Below are positions 14,450 through 64,000 of a stretch of 64,000 nt of DNA, piece by piece; positions within the stretch are counted from its first letter, which is position 1; every line of letters starts with the position of its first letter. Made by a program: the position numbers and the translations under genes. This DNA is from Capitulum mitella (Eukaryota; Arthropoda; Thecostraca; Pollicipedomorpha; Pollicipedidae). The notes beneath the pieces are model-generated. The model ran no database searches and was not told the DNA's origin. It worked only from the letters and a program-made list of their open reading frames with translations. Location of the stretch: positions 1,674,001-1,738,000 of the forward strand of contig CP099846.1 of assembly GCA_030062745.1 (NCBI GenBank). Direction: 5' to 3'.

Positions 14450-14830
14450 AGGATGTCGATTTCTGTAGATGATTGGGGGGGGGGGCGAGCCGAGAACCCA
14501 ACAACCTAATCTCTACGAAATGCGGATTTCTCAACGGCTTTAGCGCACTTTATTTTGACCAAAAGAGATTTGTAAGTCGTTTTTGTTGCTATTTGTCAAA
14601 CTAAAAATTGCATTTATCCCCGTGTATACAGGTATCTATAAAGATAAAAGATAGAAAGATAGATAGACATATCGCCTTAGACTTTATTCTGTACTTTCTG
14701 CCTATTTCTTATCTATTGCGGCCATTCTTTCGTTATCACTATTCATTGCTTTTCAAAGCTGTCAGAAAATATTGGGTGGGTCCAAACCAACATTGGGTGG
14801 GCCGAAATCAACATTGGGTGGGCCAGGGTC
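14450..14830 (+). repeat. dispersed repeat R4, copy 2
   Basis: Direct copy of 10443-10860, about 4 kb apart. It contains the shared GTCGATTTCTGTAGATGAT start, a G run at 14474-14486, AAAGATAGATAGACATAT, and a triplicated ATTGGGTGGG motif near its end (14771-14823). Confidence 0.75.
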
Positions 14831-16231: not shown

Positions 16232-16545
16232 TAAGTTTAACCCTATTCCCGGTGGGGGCGCCGAATCAGCCCCCTCGGGTTTTTGGCTTGCCAACTCCAG
16301 GATTTTTAACGCAGCTTTACGGAGCTTAATGACTTTTCTTAGATATTTTTTCTACGCACTGTGACAAAATATCAAAATTCTGTTTTACCCAGGGACGGAG
16401 CCAGCCGACGTTTTTGGGAGGCACCTCAGGCCAATTTTGGCCCTGTTGAGGATAAAAGGAAAATGACTGCCAAAAATAGCGTTTTAAGATAGAACTTAAA
16501 ACCTTATATGGATGTATAGGTAAACAGTTGGGCAACGTGCAAATA
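16232..16545 (-). repeat. dispersed repeat R1, copy 2 (inverted)
   Basis: Reverse complement matches 1-297 over nearly its whole length, including GAGGTGCCTCCCA, GGCTGGCTCCGTCCCT and CCCTATTCCCGGTGGGGGCG (complement of the other copy's CCGGGAACAGGG end). Confidence 0.75.
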
Positions 16546-21226: not shown

Positions 21227-24200
21227 GTGAAGCGCCAGACTGTCTAGTCAGACGTCCGGCACCCTGGCCAGCCGTCAGAGACCGGCCCCCTGGTCCAGAC
21301 ATCCACCACCCCGGTCCAGACATCCGACACTGGGGTCCTGGTCAGCCGTCAGAGACCGGCCCCCTGGTCCAGACATCCGCCACCCCGGTCCAGACATCCG
21401 ACACTGGGGTCCTGGTCAGACATCCGACAGGCTCCCTGGTCAGACATCCTCAGACGTCCCCCCTGGTCAGCCGTCAGACATCCGCCACCCCCAGAATGTA
21501 CCTGGGTCCTGGTTAGACATCCGCCACCCCGGTCCAGACATGCGACACTGGGGTCCTGGTCAGACATCCGACACCCCGTTCAGACTTCCGACACCCTGGC
21601 CCAGACATCCGACACCCCGGCCAGACATCCGATACACTGGTCAGATATCCGACGCTGGATCCCTGGTCCAGACATCCGACACCCTGGTCTGGCATCCGAC
21701 ACTGGGGTCCTGGTCAGACATCCGACATCGGTTCCCTGGTCAGACATCCAACACCCCGGTCCAGACATCCGACACTGGGGTCCTGGTCAGACATCCGACA
21801 CCCCGGTCAGACATCCGACACCCTGGCCCAGACATCCGACACCCTGGCCAGACATCCGATACGCTGGTCAGATATCCGACGCTGGGTCCCTGGTCCAGAC
21901 ATCTGACACCCTGGTCTGACATCCGACACTGGATCCCTGGTCGGACATTCGACACCGATGTAGCAGAGATTTCTGCTTGGCGCGACAGTTTTGCTATTGG
22001 TGACCACGTAGAAAACCTCGCTACAAATTGGTGCCGTGACCCGGATTCGCAAGTCTCATGCGTCAAGTCCGAAGTTTCCAGGTTACCTTGTGGAATATCG
22101 AGATAGTGAGTCAATCCATCCCCGCCTCTCCTTGAGCCTTCTAACTTGCATTTATTATCTGCAACAAGTTGTAAGTTGTTTTTCTGTATGGTGCTCGCGA
22201 TTCTTATTGTTGTGAATATGTTTACATCGACATCCACTGTTGGGCAACTGATCGCCCAAACAATGCAGAAAATCTTTCACGAAATCAGGGTTCAGGGTCT
22301 AACACATCACCTTCAATGGGAGTTCGTCAAAATTTCACGATTGCGAAGGGGATATGGACAGCATCTTTTGCACAATGGACGATGAACGCATGTGGCTCTG
22401 GCGACCCGCACTCTCAGTTGGCCTGCAGGAAAGTTTGCCTGTGGGCTTATAAATGAAAATCCCCACATCAGTTGGGGAGAACTCCGAGAGAGACCCCGCA
22501 AGCGATACAGTGAGGATCCTTACTGCGCTCAAATGAAGTTGCGTCAGGTTAGAAACGTTTGAGAGACTTCAGGCTGTAGCGTCTGAAGCATTTGAGGACG
22601 TTACTACCCTCGAAGTTCGTCGTTTTCGGGCAAAAGTTTTCCAAAAAGGAGTCATCGACGATAGGTTAGCCCGCAATCTTAAACGTAAGCGATTTAACGC
22701 CCTTCAAGAAGCCTTCGATTCTGCATGCGATGAGTAACAAACCAACTGCACGTTCGCAATGTGCAGGGGATCTTCAGGTCCTACTGGGGAACCAATGAAG
22801 ATTGACATTGCTCGCAACACACCTGGGTCCGACAAAATCGATAAATTAGAGCAATCTCTCAAGGAGTTTGCAGCAAAATCAGGTAAGGTATCGGAGCAGG
22901 CGACTGCGTCGAAACAACATTCGTATTCCCCAAGTTCAAGAGCGTGCCAAAGTCATCCGTCCAATCGAGGATTTTTGTCTCGAAATGGACAGTCGCCAGG
23001 GCGAATGCAAAATTTCATGCCCTCGGGACCGCTCCAGGCACCTCAGCAAGTGGGATATCGAAATTTTCCTGAGCGACATCCCCAATCTTCTGACTGCGTC
23101 CATCCCAGCCCCCAACAAATCACCCCATTCTGCAACCAAACGCGCAGTATCCGGCGCGTTCGCGTTACCAGTTGACCAATGATGGGCGCCCCATCTGCGC
23201 TCTTCCTGAAAAAAACTAAAAAAGAACACAGCGCAGCTGTCCTGCAAAAGCTATTTCAGCGGGCTCCATTATCCTAAATCCCGCTAAGGGAAACTAACTG
23301 CTCTTCTGTTCCTGGAGTGAAACGGACGGAACGTGAGCGCCAAACTGGCTCCGCGGTCAAAATTGCGCGAGTCTATGTCAAACCAGGCCCTCCGACAGGG
23401 GCGCAGCCAGGATTTGCTTAAGGTGGGGGGGGGGGGGGGGTGGCAGAGCCCAGCGTGAACTGAAATCATACGAAAACCGTCCGCCGGGAAGACGATGTAC
23501 AATGGTTTCCACAAGAAATGCGGGCCTGGGGGGGGAACGAGCCCCCGGCTCCCCTTGGTCTCTGGCTATGGATTCCGATTCTACCGATAAAACTGCTTTC
23601 ACTTGTTTGTTGTGCCTCTTCTCTTTAAATGTACGTCCTGTTGGATAGCCAGTGCCTCAGCCCTCTTTTCTGAACTTATGAATAAAGTTTTGGCAGGGAT
23701 ACAACATAAATTTGCGATTGCCTACATCGATGACATCGCAATCTTCTCCAAAATTTCTCAAGAGCATCTCAGACACACTGAAGCTGTGTTTGATCATCTC
23801 CGCAGTGCACGCTTCAAGCTCAAAAGGTCAAAACGCGAATTTCTGAAGCGGGAAGTCAAATACTTAGGTTTCACAGTTTCTCCAAGTGGCATAAGACCGG
23901 ACCTGGTAAAGCAGACGTCATTAGAAACCTGCACCATCCAACGGACGAAACAGGAGTGTGTTCACTCAATGAGATCTGCTGATATTATCACCGTTTCATT
24001 CCAAATCGTTTTGCAAAAGTCGCGAAATCTCTCAGAGTTAAAGGGGAAAAACCACCGTTTTCTCTGGAACGATCTTTGACAAAACGCTTTCGAAACGCTT
24101 CAGGATGCACTCACAGAGGCTTCCGTTCTGGCTCATCCTGACACCTCAAAAACGTACAAACTTTAGAAGGACGCGTCCTATCCCGCCATCGGTGTTACTG

Positions 24201-27200
24201 TTGTGCAGGACACCGAAGAAGGCCAAAGATTAGTCCAATGCTTGTCGCACCGGCTGAACGTCACGCGACAGCGGTGGCCCGTCGTTGAGAAAGAAGCTTG
24301 CGCCATCGTTTATGGCGTTCAGAAGCCGAGACAATGTGTTTTTGGCTCAGAATTCACCGTCATGACTGATCACAAACCTCTCAGACATCTGTTCACCGGT
24401 GAGATGAGAAACTCTCGTGCACAGCGATGGGCCATCATTCTATACGAATATGGCTGTGACGTTCACTTCATCTCTGGCAAACAGAATGTGGCTGCCGACA
24501 CCCTCTCTCGTCTCGAACCTCCCTCAGAGGTTAACGTCGTTGACTTCGGCAGAACACCCAGAGTGGAGCTGAACTCCCAAGAGGAGAAATGCCCAGAAGA
24601 TGAGGCAAACCCGCAACACGGACTCGAAGAATTCCTGTCGAACAACCGCGGCGTTAAGAGTGTTCAGGATAATGCTACGGACATCAGGACGATCCGTGAT
24701 ATTCTTGACAATGCAGAGCATCCAAACTTTGCTGAAATCCTCCGACATTGTACGGCTTTGGATGATTTACGGTTTCGCATTTCGGGCATTCAGAAGTGTA
24801 CCCCATTTCCAGGCTTTTGTAGTTAGTCATTTCACGCATTCTTCAAAAACCTCTCGTCGAGTAAATCCATTCAGGGAAATTCGGTGGACATCTAGGCGTC
24901 GACAAAACGTGTGGCAAACTCCGTTAGTGTTATTACTGGTCTGGCATTTACCGAAACGTATTTCAGTATCCCAGAAGCTGAGCTGCCTGCACCATGCGAA
25001 TATTGCGCAGAGAACGGCCTCCGTTCCAACACATACAGATTCCAAAATATGCGTCCGAAATCATCGCTATCGACGCATGTGGACCATCTCTCAAAGCCAT
25101 AATGGCAAATGATATATCATTAACTTAATCGATATATTTGTTGGATGGCTTAAGTCATTTGCCACGGAATCAAAGTACCGAGACCGTGGCTCGAATTCTC
25201 ATCGAACATATCATGCCTGTCCGTCCGTCACGCGTCATGCCTGTCCCCGCGTCATTATTTCGGACAACAGGACCGAATTTCGCAGTGCAGTCGTCGAAGA
25301 AATTTCTTCGTTCTGCAACATCAGACATATTTGTATTTCGGGTTACCATCCTCAAACGAAAGGAAAATGTGAGCGATACAATCGCGTCCAAAATGACAGG
25401 CTCTCAAAATTAGATAGCAGATCCCAACGAGACTGGGACACAACAATCCCAGCAATTCTTTCGGCATATAGAACAGCAGAAACGATAGCACAAGTTTGAG
25501 TCCGTTTTTCGTTCATTACGATAGGGATCCTGCCCTTCCCGTGGACATGTTTCTCTCTCCAAAATTCAGGTACGAAAATGAGTACGTCCCCACAGTGCTG
25601 GAAAATCTTCACCGCTCGTATCACCAAGTCCGGCATAATCTGGCCTTAAGTCACGAGAAAAACAAGTTATATTACGACCAGAAAGCGACACCAGTAAAAA
25701 TTCGGCCTGGAGACATGGTCTACTTCACAGACCCATCAGCAGCTTTTGATTCGTCGTCAAAACCCTGCTACAACAGGCTCCCTGGCCCAGACATCCGACA
25801 TCGGGTCCCTGGTCAAACATCCGACACCGGTTCCTCGGTCAGACACTGACACTGGGTCCCTGGGCCAGACATCCGGCAGCGGCTCCCTCTTCAAACATTA
25901 CTTGTTGCTGACTCGTCTCCAGCGTTCGCAGGTCCAATTTCTGGGACAGGTTTCCATCTCAGGGGACGCCAGCTCCAGTGACAGGTTTCAGGCGTGCCGA
26001 GTGCGCTTTAGTTTTGCTTCAGGTCAGTTTTGAACTCGATTTCTCAGCAGCGTGGTGGTCGATCAGTTGCAGCCAGACTCGTGCTCGATTCCAGCGGAAT
26101 CGCAGCCGAATCCGGGTTCGCTTCCAATTGGCCCGGAATTGGATTCGGAATCGATTCACTTGGGAGATGTGTTGAGTCGGATTCAGAAACGATTCAGTTA
26201 CTCCGTGGAAACATTGGAATCGGAAGGGAATCCAAAGGCAAAATGACTGATTCCGCTTTTATCAGTCTAACGTACCATTGCTTTGGTGTCTAAAAATGTA
26301 ATGTATATAACGATGAACAGCAGTGCATGTAAAAGCAATAAAGGCTTCACTTTGAGAGCAGTTTTGGGCAGCTTCATGTCAATGGTTTGTTTATTTATGG
26401 TGGCATGAGCTGGACATTGTCTGTCAGGTAGGTTGACAGGTAATGGGAAATGAGGCTGTGCTCCAGAATTTAGAACAATTAACAGGAGATCAAAGGTTTT
26501 TTCCTCAAGGCAAGACAAAAAGGTAGGAAAAGGATACACAGACATCACTGGTACACCAGTTTGCTGGTTGACAGTAAGTAGGTACTAGGTAGTGTTATCA
26601 TACCTCCAATTACTTTTACCGCCTCATAGGTATTTGCCTGGTGACGAATGTCGATTGTTATTGACTTGAGGCATGTCGCAAGAACGCCAGAACCGTACGT
26701 CGTAAATAATGTGTAAATAGAGCGCAAATACTTCCTCTTACTGCCTGAAGTCATAAGTATTTGATTGGCTACGAATGATTATTCTTGACTTCAGGCATGT
26801 CGTAAGAGCGCCAGAACTATACATCATAAATGGCGCGGAAACGCCGTGCTTATATTCAGGTATCACGTGATGCTTATTTTCTTCGCTCAGTTTTTTACAA
26901 TGTGAATATCATGCAAACGATGAAAATTTTCCTTTTTTATGACAACAACTTGTATTCAAATATTTGCTGTTGCTGAGTGCTAGATACCATAACCAATACT
27001 ACTTATGCAAACAACCTCGCGCCGACTCGAACCACGTTGTGCCGCTTTGCGGGTTGTCTGTGTTAGCACGTCCCCTCCCCTTCTTCGATCTTAATCCTTC
27101 TCCTCTTTCCTTGTGTCAGTCTGTCCCGGAAAACTCTTTGGCCGTTTGAAGTTTTAGTTCCACCTGAAAAAGGTTATCATACAGAGCACCAGCCAAGGCG

Positions 27201-30175
27201 GTGCTCTGAATGATCACCTCAGGAGTGGTAAGTGTTAAACATTAACGAGAAGCAGGTGTTGCCCCCTACCGGCATCGTTTCTGCAACTCGGATCAGGGCA
27301 GACACTGCTCGGCAGTTAGCCTAGGTGCTGCACAGTTGTGAACTTTCGCTTCAGCTAGTATTTGTTTTAGTGGCGCTAGGCAGTGGTTGATAATGTGGCG
27401 CACGAGCACGACTCACGAGAGACTGGCAGAGCTGCTGACTGTAGGTTAATTAGCCAGAGCTGAATACTGTTGGGTACACGCCACATGTGATAATGCTTAT
27501 CCGTGATTAGTCCATCCTGCGTGAGGCGAGACAGGTAAAGGACAAAGAGCATGACACAACTGAGAAGCCTGAATGGTCGTGATGGAAATTTATGGTTTAG
27601 GTAACTGTAGTCCGCAATCCTTTAGAAGCGCACGCCATAAACCAAGCACACTGGATGACACATATACGGCGCGCGTGGCAAAAGGAGACGTCAGCTGTTG
27701 CGAGAAACAACAATATTATGCACTGGAGCTCCAGGTCGTAGATCACCTACTATTCGCTCTTGTTTTACACAGTAGGTTAGGTTAGGTTAGGTTAGGTAAG
27801 GTTAGGTTAGGTTAGGTTAGCGAATAGTAGGTGATCCACGACCCTAGAGCTCCAGTGCATAATGTTGTTGTTTCTCGCAACAGCTGACGTCTCCTTTTGC
27901 CACGCGCGCCGTATATGTGTCATCCAGTGTGCTTGGTTTATGGCGCACGCTTCTAAAGGATGACCACTGTAGTCAAGGGCAACGTTTTGTTTAAACAATT
28001 GAGGGGGGGGAGCGGATGGGATGGAAGAGCAAGAGCCTAACTACCAAACGTTCCCCGAATGAGTTAGTCAACGGATTTAGCCGCATTAGTTTGATCGGCA
28101 TTAATTGTCATTTTTAATATTTGGTTATCATATACCATCTTAAACGCTTTCTTCCTTTCTTTAAAAATGAGAAAATATTTCGTAATGGTTGAGCAGGCCT
28201 CCCGCTTCTTATAACTCTACAAATCCATGCAGTTGCCTAGCCATATTGGTACCAAAAGATGCGCAATGAAAAAATAGCCCGATCGAAAGTATATGACACC
28301 TTATCGATGCCACAACTTTCCCAAAGTAACCTTTAGAAGTGATCCATTAACCCACCGCCTCTACAGTTAGCACGAGTACAGGTCACGGAGCATCTTAGCG
28401 AGACGGATCAACGCTACCAGACAAGGTTTGGCAATTCGCAAGTGTCGTGAAACATGACGTCACCGAAAAACTCCCGTAAAACGCAACAGTCTAGAAATCC
28501 GAAATAAGAGACAGCAACACTGCAACGGTTCGTATGGAACAGGGGCGTTGGAACCGAGGGGGAGGAGGCAGCTGTCCCCCAACTTTGGGCAACATTTAAC
28601 TTCCTATGACACTGCATGGAAAAAAAGAGGCAAAAATCGCATTTGCCCCCATCTCCATAGAGGCTCCGCCGCTCCTAGTATGGAAAAGTTTGGTAGAGAA
28701 AGGTTTGTAAGGGAGAAGGTTCGTAACTGGGGGCGCGGGAACTCCTCCGCAGTTGGGGTTGTGTGTGGGGGGGGGGGCAAAAAAAGCATCTTGGGTCAAT
28801 TCTTTCCAGTCAACGCCGAAATAATCATTGTTAGATTTCAAAAAAAGTTGGGGGGGGGGGACAGCTGCTCCCTTCCGCTTTCCGCGTCCTTGCCCCAACC
28901 CTATAGACATGACACACCGTTCCGCTGCCATTCATTTCTGCTACCACAGTGCCGCCTGCCTTGGATGTGTCCCTCCCAGAGAGGTTGCAAAGGAAAAAGG
29001 TTCGTAGCTTCTTCATGTTCATATGAACCTTATGTTTATGTTCATAAACATAAGGTTCGTATCGGAAAAGGTTCGTTCCTGTTTTGCGCTGAAGGTGCGG
29101 TACAGGATACTAGAGGCCGCAGGCCGACAAAGGGTGCGACCGGACTTGGCTTGGTGCAATGAGGAGTCAATTTAAAGGCTAGGTTAGGTGAGGTTAGGTT
29201 AAGTTGGGTTAAGCTAGATTAGGTTAGATTAGGCTGGGCTAGGCTAGGTTCTATTATAGGTCCGTTCCATTTCCGATACCAGCGTTTTCCAATACGAACC
29301 ATAAGTTTACGAGCTTTTTTCTAACGAGCCTTTTCCCTAACGGACCTTTTCCCTTACGAACTTTTTTCTCACTAGTCATTTCCATACGACCTTTGCAGTA
29401 CGGACCTTTTCCATTACGAACCTTTTCCGACACGAAACCTTTTCCGGTACGAACCTTATGCATACCAGCCTTTGGCTACGAACCTTTTCCCATGAAACCT
29501 GGTCTCCCAACTCAGGATCCTTCCATGCCCGTCCCATTAGTCATCTCTATCCCTATCCCATCCATGTCCCCCTTCATACCCCAGTATTATCTCAGTTTTC
29601 CTTCTCGGTCCTTCCCTCCTTGGCACACATGCCTGTCCTTGTCCGGTCCCAGTCGATCTCTCTGTCCTGATCCAGTAGTCTTGCTTCGAATTTCGAGACT
29701 GTTGTTTTTGTGAAACTCTTTCAGTGACGTTATATTTCACGACACTTGTGAACTGCCGACCCTTATCAGTTTGTGTTGATCTGTTTCGCGGAGATGCTCC
29801 GCGCTTCACACTCGCGCTAGTTGCGTACGCGCGATGTGTGACTGGACCATGTCTAGAGGGTATTTTTGGGAAATTATGATGTTGATAAGGCAGGAAATAA
29901 TCTCGATTGATCCATATTCATACTGTGCATCTTTTGGTACCAATATGGCGAGGCAGCTACCTGAATTTCTGGAATTAAAAGAAGTGGGAGGCCTGGTCAA
30001 CCAATACCAAATATTTTGGGGGAGGGGATCTGCCTAATACATCCGGAGGGGGGCAGATCCACATTGGGACGCCATGGCAGCTCCCAAAGAGTTTAAATTA
30101 ACCCCTGGTAGCAGTAGGCTTACCTACCTGATTATTAATATCTTATTGATATATGTGTATGTGCATGTGATGCAT

Positions 30176-48314: not shown

Positions 48315-48953
48315 TCAGACGGCCGTCTGAGCCTCCCCGGAGGCCAGCGTCCGTATCAGCTGCAGCATCTCGGCGCGCAGCGCGTGCACGCGCTCCTGGC
48401 TGACAGGCACGTGCAGCAGGTCAGCGCGTCGCTCGCCCAGCCGGCGCGCCACCTCCTCGGCGTGGCAGAGCGCGAACAGGCCGCAGTCGTAGCCGTTGAG
48501 CTGGCGGCCGCAGGAGGCCTCCTCGAGCCGGCCGCTGCCGCCCAGCAGCGGCGCCAGCCGGCGCGCCAGGTGCCGGGCCACCGCCTGGTTCCCGTCCGCC
48601 AGAGAGTCGTAGTGCAGGCAGCGGCCGCCGGTGGCCACCAGCAGGCTCCAGTGGGTGCCGCCCGGCGCGTCCGGCCGCTCGCAGTCGTTGATGACGAAGA
48701 GCGCGGCGCGCCGCTCGGCCAGCCGCAGCGGCTCCAGGAAGGCGGCCAGCTCCCTCTCCGGGCAGAGCCGCGCGAACTGCGTCACGTCCGGCCCGACGAA
48801 CGCCAGGCCCGCCGCCGGGAACACGGCGTGCTCCAGGTACTCCAGGTAGAACTGGATCAGCTTGTCGTTGAGCCAGTGCGGCCCCTGCAGCAATTCGCCG
48901 TCCGATTCGTGCAGCACGGAGTCGTGATAACTCAGCAGCACTGGCTCCGACAT
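48315..48953 (-). CDS. SENP8: sentrin-specific protease 8 (NEDD8 protease DEN1)
   Basis: A C48 (Ulp1/SENP-fold) cysteine protease that matures NEDD8 and removes it from substrates. It is a single uninterrupted 212-residue frame, the same length as human SENP8, and is likewise intronless. The sequence starts MSEPVLLSYHDSVL. The family block GPHWLNDKLIQFYLEYLE lies at residues 24-41. The catalytic triad is readable: His101 in GGTHWSLL, Asp116 in HYDSL, and Cys157 in QLNGYDCGLFALCH, with Gln151 for the oxyanion hole. The frame is very GC-rich, so long antisense frames appear on the plus strand. It follows MED31 on the same strand by 303 bp and converges on ASL. Confidence 0.97.
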   Translation of the reverse strand: MSEPVLLSYHDSVLHESDGELLQGPHWLNDKLIQFYLEYLEHAVFPAAGLAFVGPDVTQFARLCPERELAAFLEPLRLAERRAALFVINDCERPDAPGGTHWSLLVATGGRCLHYDSLADGNQAVARHLARRLAPLLGGSGRLEEASCGRQLNGYDCGLFALCHAEEVARRLGERRADLLHVPVSQERVHALRAEMLQLIRTLASGEAQTAV

Positions 48954-49256
48954 GACTGGTGTCGGTGGACGGTCGACGGTTCCAGTTCCGTGCTACAATA
49001 CCTTAAAAGCACGAGCGCTTCTCAGCGCGTCCGGGGCTCTGCCGTACTACAACAAATTACTCTTCCGCGCGCAGGTTACATACACGAAGGATACGCTGTG
49101 ACGTTGCAGTTCAGGCGCAGAAACCGTTACGATGAACCAATCAGGAGTAGTTCGCCTCCGCAGGAACCCGAAACACCGGCACGGAACGGACCACAGTCGC
49201 GGTCAGCTGCCGCACGGTCAGCCCTGACCCGGTGAGAGTGGCGCCGCAGGCGGTCT

Positions 49257-52200
49257 TCACAGGGTCGGAGTGGTGCTGCCCGCCGGAGTGGTTGCTGTCT
49301 CGCCGGCCAGCAGCCGCGTGCGCCGCCGCGTGTAGTGCTGCCAGTGCAAGATCTGCTGGTCGTCGATGAACTTGGCGCACTGCGAGTTGACCAGCTCCTT
49401 ACGGAAGTGTTCGTACTGCAGCAGGTCCAGGAAGTGCAGGCACATGGGGTACCTGCGCGGAGCGAGCGAGTCAGCCACCTCCGCCGGGGCAGAGTGCGGG
49501 GATGACCGCGCGGAGATCAACTGGGCGCAGCCTCAATGATACTGGCGTTACAGAACTGGAAGCAGTTCTTCCGTGACACCACAGCCGGTGGTACTTAACC
49601 CGTCCAAAAAGTGGACAAAAGAGATTCCCATACAGGGAAATGAAATGACATCACTGCTTTGCTATTCACAAAATGACGACAGAGATACGAACACATTTTT
49701 CATCAACAGCAACAACAAACATTATTCATACAAATTAATGACTGCAACAAGCACATAGTGACAGTGTCTAAGCCAGAGTCCTTCAACAGTCCTAAGAGAA
49801 CACATCACTACAGATAAATATACAGCAATGTCTGCAGTCAAAATGTATGCCTGCAAAATGCAATGCTTATGAATGTATATATGGGTCCAATATTAAATGC
49901 AGTGCTTTTCAAAATACAAACAAACTTAATTAATTCTATTAAACCACCATTGCTCTGCCACATAACCTTTTCTAAGGTGCTGTGAGGGCAGTCATATTTT
50001 GCCATCCAGTCATATTTTGCCAATCATTTTGCTAAAGTGAATTTTTCATTTTTTTTCATTCATTTTCATTTCATTTCATTTTTCATTTCATGCATTTTTC
50101 ACTAAACTGCTTCAAAGGGTGTCTTGGCCCACCAATGCCAACAGTGGGTCAAAACACACTCACTGAGATGCTTGATATTTGCCTAAAGCCATGATCACAT
50201 TTTGCAACAGCCACACAGCCCTTTCTAGAAGCTGTGGGCAAAATATCTGCTTTCCTCATCTGTACCATACTCTGAGCCATAACAGATTCCTGTTGACCAT
50301 ATAGCCTTGAAATTCAGCCCTGATATTCCTGTGCCAATTTTGGTTTGTAAAGATGACCATCTTAGTTACAAAATACCCAAGCTCCAGTTCCTGCTGCCCA
50401 ATATAAGACCTTTTCTCAAGTTTTTTGTAACAGAGTTTCTGTCACCCCTTTTAGTTTTACACAGGATGGTTATTGGCATCTTTTGCCATGTCTTAACTGT
50501 CATGGCATTTCCAACCAGACTGCACCATTTAGCAGGCAATATCAATGCAATGAGCAATGCTTCCATTAAAACCCAGCAGTGCTGACCTCACAATAATAAT
50601 TCCAATCTGCTTTTATCTTAGCAAATGTGCAGGTCAGCATTATACCATCTTATTCCACTGTGTGCCTAACAGCTTCTTTACAAATTTACTTCTTTCAGCA
50701 ATGCTAAAAAGCTACTGAGATATACTATGAACAATTTATATCACAAACTTTCAATTTGCCAGAGTGAATGAACTGATGCAAAATGCAACCTGTTCAAGTA
50801 TACATATGAGCTATGTGGAAACATTTACAAAATCAAGAACTCATTTCATTTCTAATTCCACTAACATTACCATGGAATGCCATATGTGATCATTTTCAGA
50901 CATCATGATAAACACTAACAATGAAAGGTGAACTGCAATACACAGGCTGTGGCTTCTAGCAATGTGTGAAATTTGCAAGGATGATTCTCAAATAGCTTGA
51001 GCTGGGAAACAGCAATGTCAGAATGTAAAAGGCCTCCAGCTGGCAGTCAATTTCAATGACAGAAGCTTTAAAAACACTTGATAATTAAACCTCATTCTAA
51101 AACAGCATCCTGGTTCCTAACCAATGGTATTTCTGCATTGACATGAGTTATGACTTACTTGATGTATCTCACATATTCTGGTTTAGTCCAGTATTTCAGG
51201 TACTTCAGGTAGTTGACAAAGGATTGTTCCTTGAAGTAGCCACGCTGAGCAAGAACTGCAAAATTTGTAGTGTTGGTTTCTTCCTTGGCTCTTACAGTTC
51301 ACAAGTACCCGTAAGCACCATCTTTCTCTCCATCAAAGACAATGCAGGTAACATTTTCAGCAAAGCAAAACAAATGACAAAAACAAATGCACAGTGGCCA
51401 GCTAGACCTTTAATTTCACAGATGAATAATGCATGCGCAACTTCTTAAAAAATTAGAAATGTGATATAAAGAGATTCTATAATGCACTTAATTTAATGCT
51501 GAACCTAACAATAAAGCAAGTACAAAGTTAACCTGTTTAAGTTGGATAGTACATGTATGCACTGCACAACAATGAATAACATAATAAAAATGGTACTATA
51601 TACTTACAGTTCAAATAGTTTGGATTAGCCAAGCACTGAACAAACTCTAACTCAACTTGAAATCTTAGTTTCTGTTGATCTTCAGCTTCTGAAAATAAAG
51701 ATCTGATGAGAAGCAGCAATATTAAGCTAGAAACTTTCAAGGCCTGCAGAACACATCTCAGCAGATCCCTCCTACTCAGAATCAACCTGGAGCAATCAGG
51801 AGCAGCATGAGGAAGTCTGCAGGTAAAGTAAAAAAAGGCCATATCTGCTATCTTCCACATCAATACCTGCTGGTTCAGCACAGGTGGGTGTAGCAATGAC
51901 GTGACTGCTGAATAAATATCATTTCTGTCCTCATATCTGCCCTCTACACAGCAAATATCATAGTCCAAGCACACCTGGCCTTGCAAGTTGCAACCAGCTA
52001 TAAAATGAATTACCATGACAGATTTGTCAACAGCACGAATCTGCACCAAGTGTGCACCACTTAAAAATTTCTGCTCCACGGCATTCATAATTGCCAGCCT
52101 ATGTCACCACACCAAATATGTAAGGCATGTGTTCAGAGCAGGGAGCAGAGAGAATGCAACACTGAACAAAGGTGCCGAAGCATTGATCAAAAGCCAGAAC

Positions 52201-56582: not shown

Positions 56583-59500
56583 AGAGGCCTGATGCAGAAA
56601 TGTTCTCAACACCAGACAACTATTTCCAGTCTGAGGATGGTGAAGATGCTGACCTGATTGACCTACCACCAGACGTTTTGGCTGCTATTGATGAAGTGAG
56701 TGTAGCTTGTTTCCCTCTGATTATTTTTTTCTGTGTAAAACTGTGAGTCTTGCTAAGTGTGGTAGGCATTGCATTGCATGCTGTAAGACCTCACAATGAT
56801 CGTACAGCTTTCCCACAAGACAGTTCATCCTGAAGTATGGAAATGTCTTCAGACTCTCATCCAGTGGGCACCATTTGGGCAGCATTTCTATTTTTCACAT
56901 TTACTCTTTAATAATGTTATTCTGCCCTTTGATCTCTGCACCCGTCATTGTCATGCTTATTAAACGTCACGCTCACGATATTTCAGCCATACAAATGGTT
57001 CCATTATATGCTCTGGAGTTCGAAAATTTAGAAGTGACTTAGACAAGAACTACAGCTAGAAACAACACAAAAACCACTGCTCCCGGGTGTGATTGCCTTC
57101 CTAGAAACATATCTACAATGCGTTGCAAATGCACATGATTACGTTTTTATATATTAGAAGTATGTATAAATAAATATATATATATACATATATATATGTA
57201 TATATATATGTGTGTGAAGTATATATAAATATATGTACAAATTATTCTCCATGCGAAATCAAATAACAAATAGAATATGAACACTCATTCACTGTTTTAT
57301 TACCAAATGAAAGTCATGTGTCAAAGATATCTAAATATGTATTTATGTTAAGAGATGCACAGGATTGGGATTTCTGTGATCCGGCTGGATACCGGAATAT
57401 GCCGGATCAGGGTGCTGGATAGGATATGCGGCTGGATATCCGGCTGCATAGCAGATATTATACCTGCCTGCTTTTATTTACTGTTTTTACTAAAAAATGT
57501 GATGAAGAAGGCTAAACTGAAAAGGAGAGATGTGACAAACTGAAAAAAATATTAAAGAAAATGTTAACATTGTGAACAATTCGCCCCACTGCCTACACTT
57601 CCTGTAAGGTTTCCATGGTTTCCCTTGAAAAAAACAAATAAATAAATGAATAAAGAGGACAACAGTCATAGCGGAGCTCACCATTTCTCGCTGCATGCGA
57701 GGGCATGGGTGTAACCACGGCGCAGAAATTGGGGGGGGGGGCAAACTGGCTGTAATCCACCAAGAATGGGTAGTGTGGGGGGGTGACGATCACCTTTTTT
57801 GGTCCTTGTATGATAACGTACGGTTGAAATTCCTTTTGTTGGATTTTAAAACTCAGGGAACTGTGTCGCCAGTGGGAAGTACCTATTTCATACTTCAGAA
57901 ATCGGGGGGGATAAATCGTCACTTCTGGAAAACTACGTTGGACGTGCCCTCCGCACCCCCGTAGAGATTACATTTATTGGCAAAGGTTCCAGAATGCGCG
58001 GAATACCGTTATAGCACCTTCGAACAACTAGAACACGTGGTTTGATAAACTTTTATACAAATGCTAGGTCATGTCTCTAGAAGCATATTGTTCTTCATTG
58101 CATTTGTATCAGAGGATTTGAGAAAGGTAAATATTTGAAAAATAGAAAGATAATACACCACAAAATGGGCTGCTGAGCACAAGCTGGCTATCGTTTCACA
58201 GCCTTGAGATGAAGTCCCACTCTTTCAAAATATGTCTGAATCCTCCCAAGCTAAGAAGGAAAGTGATGCTCCAGACAGACCTTGAAACTGCCAGTTACAT
58301 CCACAGTCTAATGTAACAAGGCACATTTCCCCTGAAATTTTGTAGGCAGACATGAAAACAACGTCTTGGTCGTATACCGGGAGGCTAGATATTGGGCAAT
58401 ATCGGGTCGGATCACCGAAATATCCGGCCGGATACCGGGTAATCCCTGGTACCCGGCCGGACCGAATATCGGGTGCAGCCCTATTTATGTCTGGATAGTT
58501 AAAGTATTTGTCAATACTTTTTACACTACTCAGCTTCCAATATACTCTGAGCAACATAACGCAGAACCACTGTCATCTTACACAGCTGTGTATCTAAAAA
58601 TATATGGAGAAAGTAGATACTGCTAAATAGCTATTTTCTCACTCCACTGTCAGGAGGTGGATAATGCAGAGCTCTAGTTATGTTCTGTACTTGGCGAGCA
58701 GAGTCGTCTGAATGCTTTTGACGACGTGGACTCGGAGGTCTGGAATCGGATGCAGTTGAGAAAAGAACGGAGTACGATACGGTGGCGGTGAAGCGATGCT
58801 TGTTGGATTCTTGACTTGGAAGAATCAAGCGATTCTTGGAAGAAGTTCCTTGCCACTGCCCCACAGGTGACATCCCATTCTGCTCCAGCATCTGCTGCCT
58901 TGCTCTTCATCGAAAATAAAGTTGCTGGTTCTCCCGATGGTCATTAAAGGAGGGTTACTTTCCAGATCAGCTATGCCAGCTTTAGTGAAAACGTAAGGAC
59001 AGATTGTCCACCCAACCATCAGAGATATATACACTGTCTCATAACTTGAGTTTGTAGCATGACATAACATGTCTCATAACATCATGAGCCATCCACACAT
59101 TAGCACAGAACACCACAGCATGTTGCAAAACGTTTGGTTTAGATGATTAATGGACTAACCGTGGTTACCCTGTGAGGGAGTTACCATTCGAAATACCTGG
59201 AGCTCATTAGCCAAGGAAAAGTGTGTGTGTGTGTGTGTGTGCGTAGTGGGGGTTAAAAAGCGCGCGCGGAGATAACAGTGTGGTTTTGAATCCCACTCTT
59301 GAGCGGAGTCGTCCGTGTTGCGTGATAGGTACCGGCAGACAACATGACTCTTGACCTCCGGGTGCTTCTGACCTGTTGAATCCAGCCCGCCGAATAATCC
59401 TCGGTAGATCTCTGGGGCCAATGCGGTTGGATGGTCAGCCCAAAGACGTGCATGCGCTGTCAGGAAAGAGGGTCTCCCAGACGAACGCAAAAAGCAGTAT

Positions 59501-62500
59501 GTTTTGTTTTCTTCTATCAGGCTTACATATCTTCTTAAATTTGTAAAAAATCACCTGTAATGTATTAGTGAACACACTGCTGGCATCGCCTTCGAAGCCC
59601 TGTATGTTCTCGTTGAGGCACAAGGTCTTTTAATCGGTAGGGGAGAGCTGACAGGTCAAGGGTATTCTTTAACATAACAAAAGGGGGATGTTCCCCAAGT
59701 CAGGCTGTTAACCCCTTCTTGCCCCCCCCCCCTTCCACCGTCAGATCCTTTTCCCATTATCTTAACCGCTGCCAGACGTCAGAATTTCCACCCACGTTCC
59801 CGTCGAGGGTTGCCATCCTGACCCATTTCTCCTCTAGTCAAGATGAAGCAGACAAGCATGGAGGATTGGATGTCGGTGTCATTCGTTATTATATGCATAT
59901 TTCGTTGAAAACTTCGGGTTAAACTGCGACCTCTCAAGTTAGTAGGGAATGGAGTTGATTGTACTACTTTCCGCACTCGTAGTTATCGTTGTATTTTTTT
60001 CTCACTCTGGCTGGGAAACCATGCTTTGAAGCGTTAAATAATTTCCATCTCTCAAGTATGAAACAGAACGTACTCCTGAAACTCTTCAGAGCCATTTCGA
60101 CGTAATTAGTGCCATTGACCTCACTTGAACTCGAAGAGGTCATCAATTTTCGAAACCCGAAATGTATTGTCAGTCGTATGTATGTTGTGTCATACATCAA
60201 AATTGACTCCAGATCTCGCCAGATTGTTAACGAATGGCATCAGACGTAGCTTAGATCTAGAAAAAGACTAGCAAGCCCTCCAGAAAGACGCCAGAATGCA
60301 CAGGCCTTATAAGACTCAGACAGAAGTTGTTGCGAAAGATGTGTTTTTGATGCGAAAGATGCGAAAGACTAAATTTCAGTCCCCTGACGTAGGCTTTTAC
60401 TGGTCTCGAAAATCCTCCTTGGGTGTGACAATCACGTCCTCTTGTCCTGTGAGGATTAACATTATTAGGCAGTCGTCGCTGACTCGTGGTGCGGTTGTTC
60501 ACTACAGTCAAGACCTACTAGAGGTGGTCATGTCTAGGACCAGTCTTCAGAGTTGATTTTCAGTGGGAAGGGGGAACTCCAAACCAAAATCAGAGCATCT
60601 TTATCATCTCCAGTTCTTGGGTGGGAAGGACACCTGCTTGGAATCATACAAAAAATTGGGAAGTCACGTCACGGGCAATGAAGATTTTAGCGTCAAGGAA
60701 GCTAAACATTGTAAAGGGACAAAAACGGCGCAGAAAAATGGTGTTCAGTGATAGTTCATTCTACACATGCTTCGACTAAGTCAGAAACGTGGTAATGACT
60801 GTGCCGTATGTTGGCAAACTTACAATGCCCGACGAATTAATGCGGGATTATTTTGTTTGATAACTATTTAAAAATACAGACGGGTAAACCATGAACATTT
60901 TTTATACACCTTCGTATAGCTTGGCACAAACATGTTGAAACGTAAAATAAAATAGCATAGCTGAAAACTTTTGACAAGTATTATTTAAATAGTGCTCTTC
61001 TCAGTGTGTTAAATGCCGGAAGTCATGTTATTGTGATATGCCATTTTGCATAGCTCGCAATTTGATCATTCTCATTTCTAACAATGGTATGTAATTTGGA
61101 AGGGAAACGCATACAGTGCCATTTTAACCATACGACATGTGGGTGTCCATAATTTCCTCTTCCTTTCGGGAACCAGAAACATCAGCCTGTCCAGCCCTGC
61201 AGTGTTTTCTCTTGGCGTTATATTACCGGCATTGTTACGGCACCCGTGACCTTTCGCAGGTGCTGCCCAGCAACGACCCGCTCGATCGCCACGACTTCGA
61301 CGTGGTCGACTACATCAACCAGCTGTTCCCCAGCGAGCAGTCACTGGCCAACATCGATGACGTCATATCGTCGATGACGGAGCGCGTGCGGGACATTGAC
61401 CAGGAGATCAGGAACGTCGTCCGAGGCCACACAAACGCCGGACAGGTGAGCGCCGGGCCGAACGGCGTCACATGACCCGCCGGTGACTGGCAGACGAGCA
61501 GTGCCGGTCAGTTTCGTGATCGCGGGGCGCGGGGGTCGCTCGAAGCCGTCCCGCCGATGACGTCACGCTGGGCTTGTGACGTCCGTTCGGGCTCAGACCC
61601 GCAGCCGGTCACCCGCCCGATGCGCGCCGCAGGACGGGAAGCGGGCCCTGGAGGAGGCGCAGAAGTCGATCGTGCAGCTCTTCAACAAGATCTCCGAGAT
61701 CAAGGGCCGCGCCGAGCAGTCGGAGCAGACGGTGAAGGAGATCACGCGCGACATCAAGCAGCTGGACCAGGGCAAGCGGAACCTGACGGCGGCCGTCACC
61801 ACGCTCAATCACCTGCACATGCTGTCGGGAGGCGTCGACACGTTGCAGTCAGTAGACTGGGCCTGTGGCCGGGGCTGTGGGAGGGCCATCTCACCAGCGA
61901 GCAGTCAGCACATGGGCTCTGTGACCAGGGAAGGCAGTGTAATGGGCCTCTGATTAGGGAACAGTCAGTACGCTGGGCCTCTGACCAGAGAAAAGTCATT
62001 CACTGGGTCTCAGGACAGGGAGCAGTCGATATGCTCGGCACTTGTTGGGCGACAGTCAATGGCCAGATCCGCTTTGTTTCGTATCCATCCGATTGCAGTA
62101 TCTCCCTGTCCCGTGACAGCCGGTGTTTGTGGCGTGAAATGGCCCAGGCATTTCAAAGCGTCGACAGATAACTGTGAGTGTCACAGGTGACTGTATCCGC
62201 ATTTGCCCTGTTTAGTGCAAACTCGTCTCTGGCACGCACACTGTCCTGTGAACTTGGAAACAAAGCACCTGTCGTTTTTGTGGCTTTTCCGCAGCCGCCT
62301 GGGGCGATGCGTTGCCATATTCCGCGCTCGTGGTCTCGTGACATGCCGTACAATGTGCCGTCCCCCAGATCGCTCATCTGCCGGCGGCAGTACGGGGAGA
62401 TCGCCATGCTGCTGGAAGGTGTGATGAAGGTCCTGGAACACTTTGACAAGTACCTCGACATTCCTCAGATCAAGGACTTGGCCGACCAGGTGAGCCTTGC

Positions 62501-63607
62501 CACCACGCGGGTATGTTCCCGTCCTGTTGAGCTGTCCTCGTGGGCCGTGCCCGGTGTCGCCGGTCCCGTGAGGGACGCAGGATGGTCGCGGGTCGACCGC
62601 TCGGCGCTCTGGAGGCGGACGGAAGCCGTGGCCGTGCGGAGCCGCAGGCGCGGTGTGTCGGCTCCTCCGGCGCGCGCCGCCTCCATCCGGAGACAGCGTC
62701 TTTCCGTCGGGCGGCGGACGCTCGGGCGCGGCTGACCGCTGCCCGGGCCCGCCGCAGGTTCACAAGATCCGCGCCGACCTGGCCGACCAGATCACGACCG
62801 ACTTCAAGGAGGCCTTCTCGGCGGCCAACACCAAGAAGGCCATCCCCAGCCAGCAGCTGGGCGAGGCCTGCCTGGTGGTCAACGTGCTGGAGCCCAGGGT
62901 CAAGTGAGCTGCCGCCCTCTCAGCCGTGTCGCCCGGGCTTTGGCCAGGAGGTTCTGGCGTGCATGAGGAGTCGGGAGTGAGGGCAGCGCGCGGCGCCTCT
63001 CGGCTGGCGCGCACGCTGAAACTGCACTCCGGGTGCGGTGTACTTGTGTTTCTCGTTCTGTGGTGTGTGCTGAGATTCTGCTTTCTATGGAAGTCTGACC
63101 AGGACCTCTGTGCGCAGAGGTGAGAATGGCATTATTGACAGAAATGGTTTTGTTTGGGAATCTAAATGTTGCGTATAGGTGAGACCAAATTGGCTTAATG
63201 AGCGTTACCTTGTGCTTGCGGTTCCGTTTGGTAAGCCTAATGCTCCGAAAAGTCTGCCTCTGTTCCAGTCAGAGTCTGTGCAGTGGTCACGTTGACTTCT
63301 CGGCAGTCTCTTCGGTCCATTTCCGTGAGACGGAACCTGTTAAGTGTTCCATGCTGACCCTCTTCCGACGTCTCTGGTCTGTTTCCACCAGGCGGGACCT
63401 GCTCAAATGGTTCGTCAGCCTGCAGCTGGCCGAGTACACGCACCTGTTCGGCGCCAACGAGGAGTCGGCCTGGCTGGACAACATCGACAAGCGCTACACG
63501 TGGCTGAAGCGGCACCTGATCGAGTTCGAGGAGCGCTTCGGTCGCCTCTTCCCGCCCGACTGGGAGGTCTCCGAGCGGATCGCCGTCGAGTTCTGCCACG
63601 TCACGCG
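56583..63607 (+). CDS. VPS53: VPS53 subunit of the GARP/EARP tethering complexes, 5' part
   Basis: VPS53 is a core subunit of GARP (endosome to Golgi) and EARP (endosomal recycling) complexes. Exons: 56583-56695, 61260-61445, 61633-61847, 62369-62489, 62758-62903 and 63392-63607. Phases agree and all sites are GT-AG. The product runs from the acidic N-terminus ([14 protein letters not shown]) through [29 protein letters not shown] and VRGHTNAGQ. It continues through the coiled-coil [51 protein letters not shown] and [14 protein letters not shown], to [12 protein letters not shown]. The gene continues past the window: about 326 codons are seen of a family length near 800. The true start is unclear. 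An in-frame ATG lies at 56600, but the exon opens with an acceptor in phase 1, so an upstream coding exon is possible. Confidence 0.95.
56696..57348. other. VPS53 intron 1, left part
   Basis: Unassigned, with an AT/TATG microsatellite at 57170-57220. Confidence 0.5.
57349..58482. mobile_element. non-autonomous hAT-like DNA transposon
   Basis: A 1.13 kb element flanked by an exact 8-bp duplication, ATTTATGT (57341-57348 and 58483-58490). The left end TAAGAGATGCAC and right end GTGCAGCCCT are inverted (AGRGMTGCAC). Just inside both ends are mirrored subterminal motifs (CCGGCTGGATACCGG left, CCGGCCGGATACCGG right). Eight-bp duplications and AGGGCTGCAC-like ends are characteristic of hAT elements. 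No transposase frame was seen. The centre has G runs (57730-57740, 57775-57783, 57903-57910) and may hold a nested repeat. Confidence 0.85.
58491..61259. other. VPS53 intron 1, right part
   Basis: No exon-like or transposon-like sequence recognised. A (GT)10 microsatellite lies at 59221-59240 and a C run at 59725-59735. Frames of 60-110 residues have no motif. Confidence 0.45.
59221..59240. repeat. (GT)n microsatellite
   Basis: Ten tandem GT dinucleotides in VPS53 intron 1. Confidence 0.95.
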
Positions 63608-64000
63608 GTACGTCACGCGTCCTGCCGGGGCCGGGAGCGTCACGGGAGAGACGAGCGTCACGGCTGAGACGGCGGGGGCGCTGGTGTTGCAGGAGCGTCG
63701 TTCGGGTGTCCTCGGGTGGTACAGGATGGACTTTACGCCTGATGGGACACGATGGACTTTCGTCTCGTCATCCTGAAAGACACAGGAAATGCGCGTCACG
63801 TGTCTGACACGTCACGTCACGTGTCAGACATACTGCAAAGTGTCAGATGTCAGATACTGCGATATGTCTCGCAGTGTTTGTCATGCGTGTCATGCATGTC
63901 ATGCATGTGAAGTCGACTGACTGTGTAATTCCGTTGCTGGCGGGATTAATTTCTATGCGAACCAAGTTACTTCTGTGTCTCGGTGAGTCGGAGAGTAGCT
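63608..64000. other. VPS53 intron at window end, CACGTG/GTCAGA repeats
   Basis: Short palindromic steps such as ACGTGTCTGACACGT and TCACGTGTCAGACA occur at 63795-63830, then GTCATGCATGTCATGCATG at 63890-63907. No next exon was seen before the window ends. Confidence 0.55.

Follow-up and report, generated by a model that had tools for sequence, protein, structure and literature searches.

The window, a stretch of 64,000 nucleotides from contig CP099846.1 of Capitulum mitella (assembly GCA_030062745.1), contains host exons and several kinds of repetitive DNA. The exons encode the N-terminal region of Vps53 in two frames (62181–63773, plus strand), a Ulp1-type protease (48315–48992, minus strand) and a fragment of Med31 (51537–52103, minus strand). 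Remains of a retrotransposon with reverse transcriptase and RNase H frames lie at 23591–24823 on the plus strand. Two separate tandem arrays (21247–21956 and 25779–25888) have a 20–26 bp unit of the CAGACATCCGACAC type in common, and an inverted repeat pair of 210 nt, 77% complementary and 16 kb apart (43–252 and 16272–16481), probably represents two copies of a dispersed repeat. Nothing in the window matched Rfam at gathering thresholds. The following features belong to two neighbouring elements with inverted arms, the foldback element FB1 and the palindrome PAL, or to a site related to one of them:

28181–30008, plus strand: FB1 foldback element, window copy (L010), 1828 bp, with ends fixed via 29 other loci
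28173–28180, no strand: left target-site duplication of FB1, AAATATTT, a perfect 8-mer at zero offset in the sequence
30009–30016, no strand: right target-site duplication of FB1, AAATATTT, a perfect 8-mer in the sequence
28181–28512, plus strand: left arm (terminal inverted repeat, TIR) of FB1, beginning CGTAATGG, from arm alignment and copy comparison
29677–30008, minus strand: right arm (TIR) of FB1, terminating in CCAATACC, from arm alignment and copy comparison
28726–29034, plus strand: extra stretches of FB1 (28726–28990 and 29009–29034), in at most three of 22 aligned copies, also in L011
29021–29062, plus strand: internal hairpin of FB1, two 20-nt arms (29021–29040 and 29043–29062), 95% complementary
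29098–29159, plus strand: FB1 flank module upstream of the array, common to loci L080, L079 and L002, from the FB1 consensus against these loci, with coordinates read off the window sequence
29176–29250, plus strand: degenerate (TTAGG)n array near the FB1 centre, the equivalent site being filled in 22 of 23 complete copies
29307–29490, plus strand: 16-bp tandem units of the TACGAACCTTTTCC type, the reverse of the GGTTCGTA units on the left side, from a repeat scan
27613–27965, plus strand: PAL palindromic element, 353 bp, a separate family, from arm search and copy reading
27604–27612, no strand: left target-site duplication of PAL, ACTGTAGTC, 9 bp
27966–27974, no strand: right target-site duplication of PAL, ACTGTAGTC, 9 bp
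27773–27820, plus strand: (TTAGG)n loop of PAL, 9.6 units
14478–14619, minus strand: copy of another dispersed repeat, corresponding as a related empty site to FB1 copy L012 (78% alike over the join)

An earlier note on this DNA described a foldback at 28172–30017 with equal arms of 341 bp. The foldback is real and its arms are equal in length, but the span took in the target duplication; the AAATATTT octamer is its own reverse complement, so that the arms seemed longer than they are. Arms of 332 bp, about 72% alike, enclose a middle of 1164 bp, and long inverted arms of this kind are a hallmark of foldback elements. In a local alignment of 28172–28543 with the reverse complement of 29643–30017, 269 of 376 columns are identical (71.5%) and the score is 313, against a mean of 25.7 (s.d. 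3.8, maximum 38) in 100 dinucleotide-preserving shuffles of one side. The TTAGG-like repeats that had been placed in the centre (29178–29248) correspond to the array at 29176–29250, and the claim of repeats in both orientations also held, with GGTTCGTA-type units found either way round. These 16-bp units are oppositely oriented on the two sides of the FB1 centre. Tandem subrepeats in or beside the arms are typical of foldback elements, and those of FB1 sit within the inner edges of the arms, not in the outer arms. The hairpin reported as 15 bp and perfect (29027–29058) is present, with arms of 20 nt, but it is not a trait of the family, since its left arm lies mostly inside a stretch common to at most three of the 22 aligned copies. 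The same stretches between 28726 and 29034 make the window copy longer than the others.

FB1 is dispersed throughout the genome. The search, with the left arm as query, covered the window's own assembly (477 Mb in 16 contigs) and gave 771 first-look candidates; all 40 that were scored match at 81–100%, the best being the window itself. Across 30 loci, the window copy included, the order left arm–middle–right arm is kept at about 1.5 kb. The earlier note had suggested a genome search for paired arms with similar spacing, and such pairs were found, with both ends placed in 23 of the 30 loci, rather than arms that are mostly unpaired and independent. The other loci (L013, L023, L026, L029, L030, L031, and L033) reach a sequence edge or are broken or rearranged; in L030, for example, the right half is inverted. 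Perfect 8-mer duplications were found in 8 of the 23 copies at a shift of up to 2, compared to 1 of 506 swapped pairings. Seven copies have them unshifted (L010, L011, L017, L021, L025, L028, and L039), four match at seven of the eight bases (L012, L016, L018, and L022) and the other 11 are weaker, while 9-mers are perfect in one of 23. The 15 copies without a perfect 8-bp duplication are a point against the model proposed below. Empty sites were sought by joining the flanks of 44 FB and PAL copies minus one duplication and matching them to unfilled copies of other repeats. Related empty sites across the join exist for L012 and L022 (FB1) and for L050 and L061 (PAL); the matches of L036 and L074 were excluded, each lying within its own locus.

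The FB1 consensus measures 1527 bp; with the array excluded, the median divergence of 22 aligned copies (without L038) from it is 7.6%. In a consensus built from the copies, the left and right arms agree over their outer 24 bases and differ further in, which is expected if a transposase recognises mainly the ends. The end pattern, with up to two mismatches, has 168+156 genome matches (control 1+0). Copies that are scattered and flanked by target duplications are one of the traits of a foldback transposon, and we regard FB1 with near certainty as a mobile foldback family. A TTAGG-like array occupies one constant internal site in 22 of the 23 complete copies, the exception being L038, in which most of the middle is deleted. 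Array length ranges from 33 to 118 bp among the 22, and the arrays of L021 and L036 are poor, with two TTAGG each. The idea of a foldback family linked to telomere-like repeats, put forward from the window sequence, is thus borne out by the paired arms at conserved spacing and by the recurrence of the array.

The two arms of PAL have 144 identities in 156 columns (27604–27758 against 27819–27970). PAL ends 215 bp before position 28181 (207 bp upstream, with the facing edges of the two duplications about 198 bp apart), so it adjoins FB1 and the two are not nested hairpin systems, as had been proposed, but independent families whose ends differ. The idea that the two adjacent elements are causally linked was considered and rejected, as PAL is near just one other FB1 locus among the 30, namely at the right end of the copy in L026. 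Their closeness looks accidental, but the TTAGG repeats that they have in common do not. An arm search for PAL gave 631 candidates, of which 40 were scored, with 75 arm matches at 79–100%; the end pattern occurs 358+340 times (control 0+0). Both ends were placed in 23 of 30 loci, and all 23 copies have at least five TTAGG at a constant site, in arrays of varying length. Target duplications, scored with a one-base shift allowed and without a swapped control, are perfect at 9 bp in 15 of these copies, at 8 bp in one and at 10 bp in one, and imperfect in six. At 353 bp and with 23 of 30 loci complete, PAL has the properties of a miniature inverted-repeat transposable element (MITE), for which FB1 at about 1.5 kb is long. 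In the PAL copy L003 on contig C1, the loop is longer by some 60 bases, which lie between left arm and array and may be part of an ancestral middle.

A second foldback family, FB2, is related to FB1 (arms 75–77% alike). Its copies L096, L097, and L100 are 94–95% alike, with arms of about 560–580 bp that are some 96% alike within a copy, and judged by these likenesses FB2 looks younger than FB1. None of the five copies examined (L095, L096, L097, L100, and L103) contains a TTAGG doublet. Exact FB2 ends number 125 in the genome; among the 100 listed, 24 pairs face each other at a distance of up to 12 kb, and 16 of these pairs are spaced 1700–1768 bp. In the window, 173 bases at 58269–58438 are 80% alike to the FB2 interior (L101:8112–8283), a likeness from which a fragment of FB2 is possible. 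The loci L077 and L078 (97% alike) represent a form with FB2 arms, FB2-delta, in which 716 bp (863–1578 of L096 reversed) are exchanged for (TTAGG)n, and L078 matches the FB2 copy L096 at both sides of the array. The left break follows GGTTTGGTA and is in register with the array: the sequence goes on as GG(TTAGG)n, as compared to ATTATGG or ACTATGG in FB2, with one additional TTTGG unit in L078. On the right side, FB2 sequence picks up again at TTGATCGG. The deletion removes about 199 bp of one arm, which marks the form with TTAGG as derived.

The FB2-delta junction was found at 26 places (13+13; 24 exact and two with one mismatch; control 0+0). Seventeen lie in the range covered by the listed FB2 ends, and 15 of these lie 623–691 bp inward from an exact FB2 end in the correct orientation. 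The other nine are on contig C15, beyond that range, so that some may be segmental duplicates instead of transpositions. Most simply, a single capture was multiplied by transposition, and some of the C15 copies could be duplications. Capture of telomeric repeats by break repair is the probable course of events in the FB2 lineage. Capture as such is demonstrated in this one lineage; for the other elements we infer it. It is also not a rule, since L103, an independent FB2 deletion, and L038 lost sequence without gaining TTAGG, and a 1.07-kb pair at C11:17166083 is without the FB2-delta junction.

The earlier note saw TTAGG-like sequence as a link between two hairpin systems; both do carry it, but the link extends well past these two elements. 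Four tandem TTAGG units occur 4217+4304 times in the genome, compared to 3+3 for the reversed pattern, the only control used. Twenty-six interstitial loci were read, representing 100 listed places that fall within the initial 8.7 Mb of contig 1 and thus within one chromosome segment. By sequence, 21 lie inside five element types (PAL 9, family D 8, FB2-delta 2, FB1 1, PAL2 1), and four more have element flank sequence: L002, L079, and L080 that of the upstream side of FB1, and L084 that of its downstream side. L001, the remaining locus, is unassigned. The upstream flank of FB1 scores 74 against L080 (maximum of 200 base shuffles 25), 49 against L079 (26) and 44 against L002 (26), and the downstream flank scores 86 against L084 (24). 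For L003, L008, L081, L082, L087, L089–L094, L077, and L078, all scores of the FB1 flanks are at or below their own shuffle maxima. Furthermore, L002 has blocks in common with family D.

PAL2 (L099:425–1015 and L081) starts GGTAATCCTTACC and has a duplication of 8 bp in L099 (TCACCGAC), with seven of eight bases matching in L081. The genome has 103+105 matches to its end pattern and 39+49 to its TTAGG junction (controls 0+0 for both). At G000 C7:1507753, C7:4920481, and C10:13423881, PAL2 end pairs are about 1.95 kb apart, compared to the usual 0.59 kb or so, and form a longer subfamily. As TTAGG-free ancestors these three pairs were rejected, the TTAGG junction being present in all of them. 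Family D was found complete once (L098), inside an FB1 arm and with a 9-bp duplication TGTCAAGTG; a search for it gave 630 candidates, and all 40 that were scored match at 94–100%. FB1, FB2, PAL, and PAL2 start with GG[T/C]A[A/T]T or close variants. Located by hand, the array lies between 0.37 (PAL2) and 0.61 (FB2-delta) of element length, so not all arrays are central. Such positions suit breaks in the loop of a palindrome or unfinished gap repair, as far as five types allow this inference.

We propose that FB1 is a non-autonomous Mutator-like (MULE-type) foldback transposon. A MULE-type transposase would work in trans on the GGTAATGG... ends and thereby give 8-bp target duplications. A break within a palindromic or long-TIR element would be repaired with telomeric repeats, either added by telomerase or joined on as telomeric DNA, internal sequence being lost in the process, and the (TTAGG)n array would from then on be copied along with the element, its length shifting probably by slippage. 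The array would most likely be passenger DNA, and the arrays of FB1, PAL, PAL2, and D would have arisen in the same way. As a whole, this combination of a MULE-type foldback with telomeric capture at repaired breaks is the best explanation and probably correct. For the FB1 array in the window itself, however, we put an origin by break repair at somewhat less than an even chance; its upstream flank is common to other TTAGG loci, so that the array may come from an older module, which fits inheritance better than fresh capture. A bolder reading is that palindromic Mutator-like transposons of this genome are healed by telomere addition again and again in their interiors: telomerase would extend breaks at hairpin tips or in unfinished gap repair, the extended breaks would be rejoined, and transposition would spread the scars as most of the interstitial telomeric repeats. 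This is speculative and rather unlikely, although if true, internal telomere sequence in an animal genome would owe its production and spread chiefly to a DNA transposon system.

The most serious competitor of the capture model holds that the TTAGG array and its flanks are an old inherited module. FB1, L002, L079, and L080, and perhaps D, would descend from it or have exchanged a TTAGG core, FB1 would have needed no break repair, and the array might have a role, for example in binding a host protein. The flank matches of FB1 to L080, L079, and L002 upstream and to L084 downstream agree with this, as do the blocks common to L002 and family D and the constant array site in FB1 and PAL. However, the FB2-delta array came by replacement of FB2 sequence, PAL, PAL2, D, and FB2-delta are without the FB1 flanks (scores no higher than the shuffle maxima), and the spread of array lengths among the 22 FB1 copies is unlike tight constraint. 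We consider a general explanation by inheritance unlikely. That the arrays are ordinary microsatellites, grown by slippage from short TTAGG-like seeds and only incidentally similar to telomeres, is more doubtful again. Array length does differ among copies and FB2 does have the seed-like GGTTTGGTA at the left break, but slippage leaves unexplained why 716 bp are missing where FB2-delta has its array, at least five element types with different flanks contain the same pentamer, and four-unit TTAGG vastly exceeds its reversed pattern.

Telomere repeats of arthropods are known targets of retroelements of the TRAS/SART type, and the arrays might stem from such elements or from insertion of an element into telomeric DNA. 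This is highly improbable: the two long frames of FB1 have no Pfam match, the array is inside the element and not outside, and the TTAGG-bearing types that were read have TIRs or inverted arms and duplications of 8–9 bp in non-telomeric sequence. TRAS/SART elements are recognised by a reverse transcriptase and by insertion in telomeric arrays, and FB1 shows neither. It is barely conceivable, finally, that the FB1 arms are a chance or degenerate inverted duplication of local sequence that never moved. Their likeness of just 72% or so could be read in this way, but FB1 copies are dispersed, their arms are paired, target duplications as well as related empty sites exist, and the shuffles fall far below the arm score.

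Parts of the capture model have precedents in the literature. In rodents and primates, double-strand breaks took up telomeric repeats, accompanied by deletion and microhomology (PMC2246262); FB2-delta likewise has repeats at a break, a deletion and in-register microhomology, but the mammalian cases are single loci, whereas the FB2-delta scar is inside a transposon and was multiplied. Already in print are microsatellites in MITEs, such as the hitchhiking (GTCY)n cited in PMC6947457, transposons that carry simple repeats in shrimps (PMC7878876) and the idea that interstitial telomeric repeats may arise by transposition (PMC6410037; PMC7859515). The MITE microsatellites resemble the present case in that a simple repeat spreads inside a TIR element; they differ in that here a telomere repeat is involved, in several families, with a deletion junction in one lineage. 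Telomeric (AACCT)n is also abundant in the genomes of other crustaceans, i.e., penaeid shrimps (PMC7878876) and Penaeus monodon (PMC3124438), and transposons were proposed to carry simple sequence repeats in the former, as here, but the excerpted parts of both accounts describe no element family with a TTAGG interior and no capture junction. Nor did the titles and abstract openings surveyed, mostly non-subscription, mention several TIR families with TTAGG interiors or an amplified capture junction.

Where interstitial telomeric repeats come from is usually discussed on the basis of single loci, as old chromosome fusions or repaired breaks. FB2 presents the states before and after a capture in one family, with the junction multiplied, which makes the break-repair model testable on many copies. 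The abundance that internal TTAGG can reach in an arthropod-type genome may be explained in this way, and the many insertions can be used to measure decay, expansion and rearrangement of arrays.

The assignment of FB1 to the MULE superfamily, which we consider likely, draws on several traits. Target duplications of MULEs are 8–10 bp and most often 9 bp, and those of FB1 (8 bp) and PAL (9 bp in 15 of 23 copies) fall in this range; TIRs of more than 100 bp and subterminal repeats are likewise present in FB1. An 8-bp duplication is also compatible with hAT, P, and other superfamilies. The MULEs of Aedes aegypti (Muta1 and others) have duplications of 8–9 bp, TIRs mostly longer than 100 bp and subterminal short tandem repeats, and resemble FB1 in these respects and in their many non-autonomous derivatives; the likeness is one of traits, not of end sequence, and the excerpt describes no telomeric array (PMC5225508). 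Tm1 of root-knot nematodes (PMC3169594) and Tetris of Drosophila virilis (PMC4079207) are, like FB1, built of long composite inverted arms with tandem units in or beside them, have duplications of 8–10 bp and are mostly non-autonomous. Unlike FB1, a MULE-like transposase is known for Tm1, and the excerpts on both elements do not mention a telomeric array.

The transposase that would move FB1 may be of this superfamily. MULE domains have six matches in the genome, and the loci concerned (L040–L045) were rejected as the source of FB or PAL elements, as there is no FB or PAL arm in the flanks examined. Neither the MULE-domain flanks nor the FB2-armed locus L095, L101 or the empty-site comparison revealed a transposase with FB or PAL ends. 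A large transposase family has 74 genome matches, with open frames of up to 1181 aa, and the single element of it that was read, the one nested in L101, has other ends. L095 (C3:11569600–11576100) is a 6-kb FB2-armed element with arms of 857 bp, 97.4% alike, and an interior of 4.3 kb; as an autonomous FB2 it was dismissed, with no Pfam match in the 10 scanned of 27 listed open frames. The same applies to L101, whose coding sequence belongs to a distinct element of 7.04 kb that sits within FB2 and has a 9-bp duplication of its own, GAAAAGACG; L096 shows the empty site of this nested element. The ends of this nested element score 24 against PAL (shuffle maximum 30) and 20 against FB (maximum 39), no better than chance, and one L101 frame gave a single weak match to the PDB (E 0.069), to an unrelated protein. 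The nested element itself (L101:592–7634) has inverted arms of about 1.5 kb made up of 329-bp tandem units, and its frames are transposase-like and unnamed by Pfam. Its copy on contig C12 (L102) has an open stretch of 1099 aa with a Ulp1-type (Peptidase_C48) protease domain at the end, and a fragment of a Mariner-type transposase (PF01359) is nested in the 7-kb element at L101:4408–5247 on the minus strand.
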